A stretch of DNA of 33,335 nt from Desulfobacteraceae bacterium (lineage in GTDB: Bacteria > Desulfobacterota > Desulfobacteria > Desulfobacterales > JAABRJ01), in NCBI GenBank assembly GCA_022340425.1, contig JAJDNY010000064.1, positions 1 through 33,335 on the forward strand, written 5' to 3'. The position numbers and the translations under genes are program-made. Shown here one piece after another: positions 3,018 through 12,955 of this stretch (positions are counted from its first letter, which is position 1; each line of letters opens with the position of its first letter). The notes under the pieces were generated by a model. The model saw only the letters and a program-made list of their open reading frames with translations, made no database searches and was not told the origin of the DNA.

Positions 3018-3719
3018 ATGCTCAAAAGGGATCTCATCCTCCGCAACCCCCTGCGCCTGATGGGTCATGAAACCGACGACATCCTGCCGCCGGGCGGATT
3101 CGGTGCCGTGCTGGCCCGCGCCGGCGTCGGCAAAACGGCCCTGCTGGTACAATTGGCCCTCAACAGCGTGCTGCGCGGCCGCAACGTGCTGCACATCAGC
3201 CTGCGCGACCCCGTCAAAAAGGTCTGCCTGTGGTATGAGGAGGTTTTCCGGAACATCGCCACCCATTACAAGGTCAGCCAGATGGACCAGCTCTGGGAGG
3301 CCATTTTGCCCTACCGCTTCATCATGACCTTCAATGCCGAGGATTTCAGCGTGGCCAAACTGGAGCAGCGCATCGCGGACCTGACCGAACAGGACATTTT
3401 CCTGCCGCAAATGGTGCTTTTCGACGGCTATCCCTTTGAAGGCGCGGTTTTTGAGCCGCTGGCGGAGCTGAAAAACCTGGCCCGCGCCAACGGTTACCTC
3501 ACCTGGTTTTCGGTACGCACCCACCGCCATGACCAACCGGCGCCCGATGGCCTGCCCCCCGTCTTCAGCCCGGTGGAGAGCCTTTTTGATGTCGCTATTC
3601 AGCTGCAGCCGCAAAACGACGGCGTGTACATCCAGGCGCTCAAGGGCGGCAGTCCCGGGGACCAGGCCCCAAAGCTGTTTCTGGACCCGGCCACCATGCT
3701 GATCCAGGACGCGGCCTGA
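3018..3719 (+). CDS. P-loop ATPase-like protein of unknown function
   Basis: The 233-residue soluble protein starts at an ATG preceded by a strong AAAGGAG about 7 nt upstream. A Walker A motif (ARAGVGKTA) lies near residues 33-41, after a GGFGAVL strand as in RecA/KaiC-type ATPases. A hydrophobic strand ending in Asp (QMVLFDGYPF, about residue 135) could be the Walker B. I see no signal peptide, membrane segment or DNA-binding motif. It lies 117 bp after the EF-G gene on the same strand, so read-through is possible. The overall look is that of a RecA/KaiC-like single-domain ATPase kept in deltaproteobacteria, but I do not recognise a named family and assign no function. Confidence 0.8.
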   Translation: MLKRDLILRNPLRLMGHETDDILPPGGFGAVLARAGVGKTALLVQLALNSVLRGRNVLHISLRDPVKKVCLWYEEVFRNIATHYKVSQMDQLWEAILPYRFIMTFNAEDFSVAKLEQRIADLTEQDIFLPQMVLFDGYPFEGAVFEPLAELKNLARANGYLTWFSVRTHRHDQPAPDGLPPVFSPVESLFDVAIQLQPQNDGVYIQALKGGSPGDQAPKLFLDPATMLIQDAA

Positions 3720-3841: not shown

Positions 3842-4528
3842 GTGATCGGAACCATCGTCAACACACTGGCCATCGTCGCCGGCAGCATCCTCGGCCTGCT
3901 GTGCCGGGGGGGCATCCCGCAGGCTTACAACCAGACCGTGATGCAGGCCATCGGCCTGGCGGTGATCCTGATTGGTTTCAAAAGCGCGCTGAAAGCCGAC
4001 GACCTGCTGCTGGTGATTTTCAGCCTGACCATCGGCAGCGTGCTCGGTGAGGGGCTCAAAATCGAAGCTCGCCTGGAGCGGCTCGGGCAATGGCTGCAGC
4101 GGCGCATGGCGCTGGCAGGCGACGGGATCGCCAAGGGGTTTGTGAGCGCCAGCCTCCTTTTTTGCGTCGGTTCGATGGCCATCGTGGGGTCCCTGGAAAG
4201 CGGACTCACCGGCAATCACCAAACCCTTTTCGCCAAATCCGTTCTCGACGGCATCACCGCCATCATTTTCGCCTCGGCCCTGGGCATCGGCGTGATCTTT
4301 TCGGCCGCGGCCGTTTTTCTCTACCAGGGGCTGATCACCCTGACCGCCTCCTTCATCAGAGAATTCCTGGTGCCCCCGGCCATCGACCAAATGACGGCCG
4401 TGGGCGGGGTGCTGATCATCGCCATCGGGATCAACATTCTGGAAATCAAGCGGATACGGGTGGGGAATATGCTGCCGGCAATTTTTCTGCCGTTGGTCTA
4501 TTTCATTCTCAGGCAGCTGTGGGCATAA
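3842..4528 (+). CDS. DUF554 family integral membrane protein
   Basis: The 228-residue product starts at a GTG with GGGAG about 8 nt upstream. It is almost wholly hydrophobic with about six or seven membrane segments. It carries the hallmarks of the DUF554 (YdfK/YqgA-type) family: an N-terminal GTIVNTLAIVAGSILG segment, a QAIGLAVILIGFKSAL segment, SLTIGSVLGEGLKIE, a central CVGSMAIVGSLESGL and a DGITAIIFASALGIGV loop. The family is a predicted inner-membrane transporter or channel with no proven substrate. It stands alone, with GC-rich structure upstream and a hairpin downstream. Family call is confident, function unknown. Confidence 0.9.
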   Translation: MIGTIVNTLAIVAGSILGLLCRGGIPQAYNQTVMQAIGLAVILIGFKSALKADDLLLVIFSLTIGSVLGEGLKIEARLERLGQWLQRRMALAGDGIAKGFVSASLLFCVGSMAIVGSLESGLTGNHQTLFAKSVLDGITAIIFASALGIGVIFSAAAVFLYQGLITLTASFIREFLVPPAIDQMTAVGGVLIIAIGINILEIKRIRVGNMLPAIFLPLVYFILRQLWA

Positions 4529-4547
4529 AGGTCGCCAGACCGGGTGG

Positions 4548-4566
4548 GCAGGCCCGAGGGGCCTGC
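4548..4566 (+). repeat. Perfect 8-bp hairpin between convergent genes
   Basis: GCAGGCCC (4548-4555), a GAG loop and GGGCCTGC (4559-4566) form a very stable hairpin 20 bp after the DUF554 stop. It faces the convergent minus-strand gene at 4642. No T-run follows on either strand. It probably acts as a shared 3' end structure. Confidence 0.5.
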
Positions 4567-4641
4567 TGCGGGATGTCCCGGGGTCTTTGGCCTTCGAAGG
4601 TTTGGCCTATCGGCGGGGAGTTCAGGTAGACTCCCGCGGGT

Positions 4642-5013
4642 TTATTTGATCCAGGAAAACACGGCAGTTCCCAGCACCAGCAGGATGATGCCCGCCATGC
4701 GGTATGTCTGATCGTCGGCCTGCTGCAGATACCATCGCCGGATCTTTACGAAAAGCCCCCGCGGGTTGACGAAGAGCAGGAGGCCCTTGGCCACCGCCAA
4801 TCCCGCCAGGAGCACCACGAACCAAAAATTCTGGCTGGCGCCGGCCGAGAGCAGCAGCAGCACCCCCACCCCAAAGGCCAAGGCGCCGAAAATTTGGGGG
4901 CTCATGTTTTCCAGCAGGGTGGCCAAAAATTTGCGGCAGGCGGTAGTGTAGAGTACCAGGCAAACCCCCGATGCAATCCAGAACAAGCTGATGACCATCA
5001 GAACCCATTTCAT
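4642..5013 (-). CDS. Small inner-membrane protein of unknown function
   Basis: The 123-residue product starts at an ATG with a good AGAGGAGA ribosome-binding site. It is predicted to span the membrane about four times: MKWVLMVISLFWIASGVCLV, then IFGALAFGVGVLLLLSAG, FWFVVLLAGLAVAKGLLLF and a final GIILLVLGTAVFSW. A basic stretch (KIRRWYLQQ) separates the last two. It lies 59 bp downstream of cheX on the same strand, so both are probably on one mRNA. I do not recognise a named family; a longer open frame upstream in this phase is a shadow of cheX. Confidence 0.75.
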   Translation of the reverse strand: MKWVLMVISLFWIASGVCLVLYTTACRKFLATLLENMSPQIFGALAFGVGVLLLLSAGASQNFWFVVLLAGLAVAKGLLLFVNPRGLFVKIRRWYLQQADDQTYRMAGIILLVLGTAVFSWIK

Positions 5014-5072
5014 CGTGCTGTCTCCTCTGGGTAAAAGTTCCCGGTTTCGCGGCGCGCCGCGTTTCCAACTTA

Positions 5073-5546
5073 TCAGCCGGCCACATCTTCCCGCCAGCAG
5101 AGCTCCACGGTCAGACCGCCGAGCGGCCCGCTCAGCGGGACAGCGACCACCGCCACCCCGGATGTTTGGCCGGGTAGAGGCCCCTGCCCCATCACCACCG
5201 CATCCGGCCGGACATCGATCCGGGGCGATACATCCGCAAGTTTTTGCGCCGCCTGGCCTGAGACCATGTTGACGATCTCCCCGACGGCATCCTGGATGTC
5301 CCGGTTCACCTCCTGCAAGTCCTCCCCCAGCATGCGGGAGACGATCTGAAGCACGCAGCCGCGCTGGAAGCTCAGGGCAGCGCTGCCGCTCACGCCCCCC
5401 GAGAGCAGGATAACCCCTGTGACCTCCCCGCTGGGCGCGGGGTCGGTTTTCAGGCGCGGCTTCTGAACCGTGAATTGCGCGCCGCCGAGGGTGGCCAGCA
5501 CGTGGCAGGTGGCGTCGATCAGGATGTTGATGATGGTGGCCTGCAT
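5073..5546 (-). CDS. cheX: CheX-like chemotaxis phosphatase
   Basis: The 157-residue protein matches CheX, which dephosphorylates CheY-P. The start is placed at MQATIINILIDAT, where the family begins, with AGGAA about 11 nt upstream. The diagnostic E-x-x-N motif is present in VGEIVNMVSGQA, with Glu90 and Asn93 as the expected catalytic pair. A GEVTGVILLSGGVSGSAALSF strand set precedes it. It is a paralogue of the CheX at 10982-11443. No CheA, CheW or receptor gene is nearby, so it may serve a distant chemotaxis cluster or a non-chemotactic two-component pathway. The likely promoter is at 5663-5692. Confidence 0.88.
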   Translation of the reverse strand: MQATIINILIDATCHVLATLGGAQFTVQKPRLKTDPAPSGEVTGVILLSGGVSGSAALSFQRGCVLQIVSRMLGEDLQEVNRDIQDAVGEIVNMVSGQAAQKLADVSPRIDVRPDAVVMGQGPLPGQTSGVAVVAVPLSGPLGGLTVELCWREDVAG

Positions 5547-12195: not shown

Positions 12196-12537
12196 ATGCA
12201 GCCCAAGCGCCTGCCGTTTTGGCCTTGTTTACTGGTGCTGGTGCTCTCCGCCTGCGTTTCTCTCAAGGGCCGGGTGCCCGATGGCGTCGTGGATTACCGC
12301 GACCTGCGCCGTCAGGACCTGATTGCCAAGCTAAACACGCTTCAAGCGCGGCTGGACAGTACTGAGAAAAGCCGACGCAAGTGCTCCCTGGCCTACGGCG
12401 CTCTCCAACGCCAATTCCAGGAACTCCAGGCGCAAAATCGCAGCAACGCCCTTCGCATCAAGGCCCTGGAGTCGGAGTTGGCGGAGATCAATTTTGCCTT
12501 TGAAATACTGCGCAAGGAGCAAAAACCGGGAGGGTAG
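12196..12537 (+). CDS. Small coiled-coil lipoprotein
   Basis: The 113-residue precursor has a lipoprotein signal: basic MQPKRL, a hydrophobic core and the lipobox LSAC, so lipidation is predicted at Cys20. The mature part is almost entirely heptad-like (LIAKLNTLQARLDSTEK, then ALQRQFQELQAQNRS and ALRIKALESELAEINFAFEIL). This indicates a long periplasmic coiled coil anchored to a membrane. GGGAGA precedes the ATG. It ends 13 bp before the 131-bp palindromic element. Similar short lipoproteins can act as envelope spacers, but no function is assigned. Confidence 0.8.
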   Translation: MQPKRLPFWPCLLVLVLSACVSLKGRVPDGVVDYRDLRRQDLIAKLNTLQARLDSTEKSRRKCSLAYGALQRQFQELQAQNRSNALRIKALESELAEINFAFEILRKEQKPGG

Positions 12538-12550
12538 GGGTCGCGACAAG

Positions 12551-12681
12551 AAATAATTCCACAATATGGCGAAGGATTTTGGTTCGTCATCAAGGCACAT
12601 CCGTTGGCGCATATCGAGATATGTGCCGGCGGATGTAACGACGAGGACGGGCCAAAAGACAAGCAAGATGTGGAATTATTT
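12551..12681. repeat. 131-bp palindromic element (MITE/REP-like)
   Basis: Perfect 13-bp terminal inverted repeats (AAATAATTCCACA at 12551-12563 and its complement at 12669-12681) are centred on the same point as an internal 40-bp hairpin (12597-12636). The hairpin pairs 19 bp with a GA loop; its only departures from Watson-Crick are three G-T wobbles. Blocks between the ends and the core (TTTTGG/CCAAAA, CGTC/GACG) also pair. The whole is thus one large imperfect palindrome. It has no coding content and lies between convergent genes, where it could also stop transcription. No second copy was found in this window. Confidence 0.8.
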
Positions 12682-12955
12682 TTTGCCGAGGCCCTGAAAG
12701 AAGGGGTGGGCGGTTTCCGGGTCGAGCCCGGTGGATGGCGAGAACCGACGCCGGCAGGCGCTATCGGCGGCGTCGGATTGGGGCGGGGCACTGCCGGCAC
12801 GCTGGCGCGGGGCGAATTCAAAGTTCCTTTCTCATCCCGGCCGCCATGCCCCCGGCCGGGTCGGTGGCCGGCAATTCCAGGATCGGCAAGGACTTTCGGC
12901 CTATGGCCGCTTTGGCACAGATCAAACCCCGCGCCGGGTGTGTCACCCGAAAACC

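Follow-up and report, generated by a model that had tools for sequence, protein, structure and literature searches.

ERIC/IRU sequences are short non-coding repeats counted among the bacterial MITEs with terminal inverted repeats (TIR) and target site duplications (TSD); they are intergenic and are transcribed as a long stem-loop (PMC2229807). RUP of Streptococcus pneumoniae is likewise multicopy and non-coding, with terminal inverted repeats and a target duplication, while QMITE2 of Coxiella burnetii (PMC5896051) measures 150-190 bp, forms a long stem, resides mostly in 3' untranslated or intergenic sequence and has relatives in another class. These traits recur in the family described here, including the short, non-coding and intergenic character, the TIR and TSD and the long stem-loop that it shares with ERIC/IRU. 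A palindrome in the window (the whole stretch of 33,335 nucleotides analysed) is very probably one copy of this non-autonomous, MITE-like family of about 157 bp, which inserts at TNA with a 3-bp duplication; a DDE enzyme would mobilise it in trans, and its fold would have a role in its spread. The initial annotation had offered the palindrome as either a mobile element, of MITE or REP type, or a bidirectional terminator: the copies, TNA duplications and empty sites reported below support mobility of the MITE-like kind, and neither the terminator nor the REP type was upheld.

The element occupies 12538-12694 (157 bp), as defined by an alignment of about 45 copies, and starts with GGGTCGCG and ends with CGAGGCCC. 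A covariance model of the family matches the window copy over the same interval, with 163.1 bits on the + strand, on which the element folds best, and 65.7 bits on the - strand. The nested palindrome of 131 bp that had been annotated initially was confirmed in structure, with the perfect 13-bp terminal repeats (AAATAATTCCACA at 12551-12563 and TGTGGAATTATTT at 12669-12681), the nested blocks and the core hairpin all present, but its coordinates were too tight: the inverted arms reach beyond 12551-12681 and comprise 26 nt each (12538-12563 and 12669-12694), 85% complementary. On the + strand, the left arm of this terminal stem, GGGTCGCGACAAGAAATAATTCCACA, carries a conserved AAATAA box and the right arm, TGTGGAATTATTTTTTGCCGAGGCCC, a conserved TTATTT box; the two arms form helix 1. 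Three further parts of the same strand have approximate limits: (i) a conserved left inner motif, the GAAGGATTTTGGTTCGTCATCAAGGC region (12571-12594), defined by near-invariant columns of a 28-member alignment; (ii) a conserved right inner motif, the TAACGACGAGGACGGGCCAAAAGACAAGCAAGA region (12636-12668), which in that alignment and its consensus fold pairs with the left motif through conserved U-G wobbles; (iii) a central hairpin, helix 4 (12595-12635), whose sequence varies and whose pairing is kept family-wide. No ORF reaching 60 aa lies within the 157 bp, which are thus without coding capacity. The element is flanked on the left by TAG (12535-12537), the stop codon of the ORF at 12196-12537, and on the right by TGA (12695-12697), so that the window copy has no identical TSD at its own insertion.

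A single copy conserved at this locus in all relatives would, according to the initial annotation, have favoured a fixed terminator; the opposite was found, with many further copies in the host genome and in relatives. After merging of matches, the host genome (3.97 Mb in 209 contigs) was found to harbor about 45 full-length copies, 76-100% identical to the window copy, and about 10 that are partial or internally deleted. A BLAST search with the 131-bp query returned 40 places on the matching strand, and a terminal pattern gave 107 matches, mostly as inverted pairs, against 0 for the reversed control. Two derivatives of 93 bp (G000:C108:643-736 and 1388-1480) have a common internal deletion, which suggests that a shortened form of about 93 bp has also spread.

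The covariance model, with 12 candidates per genome scored, placed the family in 101 of the 242 genomes of the order to which the window belongs (about two fifths). A search of named genomes with the inner-motif pattern yielded at least 112 matching stretches, mostly from MAGs of Desulfobacterales/Desulfobacteraceae; other carriers among the matches listed are Methylococcaceae, the methanotrophic symbiont of Bathymodiolus japonicus, Methyloprofundus, Hyphomicrobiales, another alphaproteobacterial MAG and Magnetococcales, together with one listed match in a MAG titled Caldisericaceae, which contains two matches. Judged by these relatives, the window itself would come from Desulfobacterales. Six distant genomes gave 99, 94, 68, 40, 36 and 15 matches to the covariance model, and copy number by this measure is high in Methylococcaceae, the Bathymodiolus symbiont, Hyphomicrobiales and Magnetococcales. 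The element had no match in phages, plasmids or viral contigs. Rfam returned no family at gathering score in the window and none at E values up to 5 in 12500-12740, and the open-access literature on bacterial MITEs and REPs, subscription journals being outside the scope, does not describe the family, which is apparently undescribed as far as the open literature searched shows.

Target duplications and empty sites at orthologous loci, both of which the initial annotation had named as marks of mobility, were found. Among the host's own copies with TNA on both sides, the N is identical in 26 of 34 (shuffled mean 10.2), and among copies in relatives with ends defined by the covariance model it is identical in 48 of 54 (shuffled mean 27.4); in neither set did any of 20,000 shuffles reach the observed count. 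Because the N is complementary in just one of the 34 and two of the 54, the 3-bp TNA is a direct target duplication and not an extension of the hairpin. These counts use alignment- and model-defined ends; an end-finder that returned identical TSDs in 98 of 124 cases favoured identity and was excluded as evidence. In distant genomes the TNA duplication was seen in 13 of 18 copies, a figure that is supporting only, as these ends were chosen for TNA and pairing. Moreover, when the joined flanks of seven of the host's copies were compared with the congeneric genome G001, four orthologous sites aligned across the junction without the element. Two of these are clean empty sites: the one corresponding to C15:3024 aligns at 90% identity and has one TCA, and the one corresponding to C137:11980 has one TGA. 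The other two show small differences at the junction. The gene preceding the window copy has no match among the 57 relatives searched, and consequently no empty site can be demonstrated for the window insertion itself.

Many insertions coincide with stop codons. Among 109 intergenic insertions, comprising all copies with usable flanks and with genes called as crude ORFs, 41 fall on a stop codon, as opposed to 22.8 expected from equal use of non-coding TNA sites (z 6.0, about 1.8-fold), and this excess could be taken to mean that the transposition machinery, besides moving the element, actively targets stop codons. Such targeting is doubtful. A TNA always reads as a stop codon on one or the other strand and the duplication rebuilds the codon, so that tolerance at gene ends can yield much of the excess; insertion at 3' ends is also safe, and the gene calls are crude. 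Insertion use drops with distance from the gene end, the nearest TNA being the commonest site. Strong stop-codon targeting, as a first test had given (p about 1e-12), was rejected, since its null was a poor one that included coding TNA; with non-coding sites only, the excess falls from about 5-9-fold to 1.8-fold.

The palindrome in the window folds on the + strand with -76.3 kcal/mol (z -11.3); shuffled sequences average -35.7, and none of 200 reached its stability. On the - strand the value is -58.3 kcal/mol (z -8.3). In 28 diverse members the full length folds as one hairpin, with a constant order of parts: TNA, GG(G), about 10 variable bases, AAATAA, a variable stem and a conserved inner motif near GGATTTTTGTTCGTCTTCAAGGCG, followed by the variable central hairpin, a conserved partner motif near CAACGCAGAAGACGGRCAAAARRCAAGCAAGATG, a variable stem, TTATTT, variable bases, CC(C) and TNA. 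The consensus fold of this alignment comprises 56 pairs, 39 of which show compensatory double changes, including 19 of the 23 pairs of helix 1; in helix 4 both sides have changed in 10 of the 11 pairs. Paired cells amount to 92.8%, compared with 74.7% in shuffles (0 of 500 as high) and 40-50% for partners displaced by 1-3 columns. Columns 48 and 119 pair as a U-G wobble in 26 of the 28 members. Conservation lies in the inner motif, with terminal sequences diverging strongly from one subfamily to another, which is the reverse of a typical MITE.

The G-T wobbles of the core had been read in the initial annotation as a sign of selection on folded RNA or single-stranded DNA. They are real, lie on the + strand and are conserved in part in distant relatives, and the proposal is supported for the family as a whole, though not at a significant level for copies already inserted and resident. 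The paired cells of the 28-member alignment contain 145 G-U and 21 A-C combinations, i.e. G-U wobbles are kept on one strand; counted once per column and type, the numbers are 43 and 17 (p 0.001), or 33 and 10 outside helices 2 and 3. Single-side changes shared by close copies within genomes comprise 118 G-U and 38 A-C, these cells not being independent, whereas the private mutations of resident copies comprise 67 G-U and 49 A-C (p 0.11, not significant); the contrast between the two thus uses non-independent shared cells, and the private ratio of 1.37 leans in the same direction without significance. Since the shared and between-family changes keep one-strand pairing and the private ones do not do so significantly, the fold appears to be selected during spread and not after insertion. 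On the simplest reading of these sequences, one-strand pairing seems to be required of spreading lineages and to decay at near-neutral rates in copies that have become resident, and the folded strand, whether RNA or single-stranded DNA, would serve the spread of the element rather than the host.

A stronger version would make folding of one strand, as single-stranded DNA or RNA, an obligate step of transposition, so that the family would be a hairpin-dependent mobile element that nevertheless makes a 3-bp duplication, and not a passive MITE of the DDE type. The covariation over the full length, including the non-terminal central hairpin, the wobble in 26 of 28 members, the between-family G-U excess on one strand and the ends that vary in sequence while their pairing is conserved are all consistent with this version, which is nonetheless unlikely: the wobble of the inner motif is explicable by left/right asymmetry of an ordinary transposase site, template switching can also keep palindromes matched, and the established single-strand transposases, those of IS200/IS605, are not known to make a target duplication. 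It is similarly improbable that a gene-less family crossing classes relies for its transposition on the full-length fold of one particular strand and combines recognition of a single-strand hairpin with staggered double-strand insertion, its ends tolerating any change that preserves their pairing.

The favoured mechanism remains that of a non-autonomous, MITE-like element, which spreads by insertion into TNA sites with duplication of the 3-bp target. The mobilising enzyme would act in trans and is most likely a DDE transposase of the IS5/PIF-Harbinger type, since 3-bp duplications at sites of this kind are what that group produces; this assignment is a lead, the agreement being limited to the 3-bp TNA target. 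A transposase or RAYT sharing the termini, as envisaged in the initial annotation, was found neither in the host genome nor in genome G050 nor at the loci examined. Paired ends 0.7-3 kb apart were sought in the host genome and in G050 (two contigs, more than 25 copies), and no transposase lay between such ends; paired ends in G050 are 97-262 bp apart, and those of 261-262 bp contain another MITE. The PF01609 (DDE) and Y1 transposase loci examined showed no matching TNA-flanked inverted-repeat ends, and a search for split inner motifs at a set of element loci revealed no autonomous element inside. A REP-like element moved by a Y1 tyrosine transposase (RAYT/TIRYT) is very unlikely: the large hairpins folding on one strand, the 32 Y1 matches in G050 and the RAYT genes on record with long flanking inverted repeats (PMC3733652) fit such a system, but the 3-bp direct duplications are clear, the GTAG/CGTC foot tag is absent, and ten Y1 loci lack element-like ends, eight of them having been scanned with the covariance model without a match. 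The identity of a REP or RAYT-associated repeat was rejected on the length of 157 bp instead of 20-40 bp, the GGG...CCC ends without a GTAG/CGTC tag and the presence of a target duplication. Least probable is a host-maintained RNA element or bidirectional terminator, which the location at gene 3' ends, most often at the nearest TNA, would suit, but which is opposed by the empty orthologous sites in the congener, the private mutations without significant strand-biased conservation and the 0 terminator-like sites (GC-rich stem with T run) in 12400-12900, the last of which, with the empty sites, also led to rejection of a fixed terminator.

Inserts found inside elements comprise integron-like cassettes, a group II intron, another MITE and small inserts. 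At L212 (DAOWOF010000260.1, 380-2640), an insert of about 2 kb interrupts one element within its central hairpin. It carries two genes, for a methyltransferase and an unassigned protein of 293 aa, and behind each gene lies a palindromic tract resembling an integron attC site; these are apparently gene cassettes inside the element. A group II intron (Rfam RF00029, RF01999) of the Bathymodiolus japonicus symbiont abuts the right inner motif of the element at L196 (near 3489-3590) and L210 (near 4394-5210), with its endpoint at the same position at both loci. Three loci of G050 (L243, L244 and L245) have a MITE of about 104 bp (TATAGACCGTCACATAA...TCTATA) inserted inside element copies. Loci L282 (1638-1797), L278 (321-479) and L286 (1563-1743) contain a second palindromic family flanked by TNA (GGGTTCGCCCAAAAATAAGTTCGC...). 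It agrees with the present one in architecture but not in inner sequence, is hit weakly by the covariance model (46-63 bits) and is probably a sister family. A third family, which starts with AGGAACGAGGACGAAATAACTTCC, has the AAATAA box in common with the present element and also forms long central hairpins; it occurs at L305 (3184 onward), L162, L220 and others, sometimes adjoining the present element.

The family is mobile and can now be detected with a covariance model; its carriers are sulfate reducers, methanotrophs and other proteobacteria, in which a genome can contain as many as about 100 copies. Its RNA-like covariation, combined with varying ends and a conserved interior, makes it a natural system in which to ask if a folded strand takes part in DNA transposition. 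Strong hairpins placed right after stop codons may, moreover, alter the expression of upstream-lying genes.

Compared by description, ERIC has TA termini and is enterobacterial, whereas the present family has TNA, a length of 157 bp and a range of Desulfobacterales and other proteobacteria. REP, BIME and TIRtron sequences (PMC3733652) are also high-copy palindromes downstream of genes with strand-oriented hairpins, but differ from it in size, in their foot tag and in making no target duplication. The PIF/Harbinger-IS5 (PHIS) elements share the 3-bp target, C|TNA|G in NuwaII (PMC4482050); however, these elements carry their own transposase gene, NuwaII belongs to eukaryotes and the IS5 target is given as ANT (PMC4482050), so that the TSD is the only link. 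QMITE2 differs by variable direct repeats of 7-11 nt and an embedded GTAG REP, in contrast to the 3-bp TNA of the present family, and RUP has ends in common with IS630-Spn1 and inserts at TA, whereas no autonomous element was found here. Apart from the autonomous partner, of which none was found, and the conservation of the interior in place of the ends, the element falls within the general definition of MITEs of the ERIC and RUP type.
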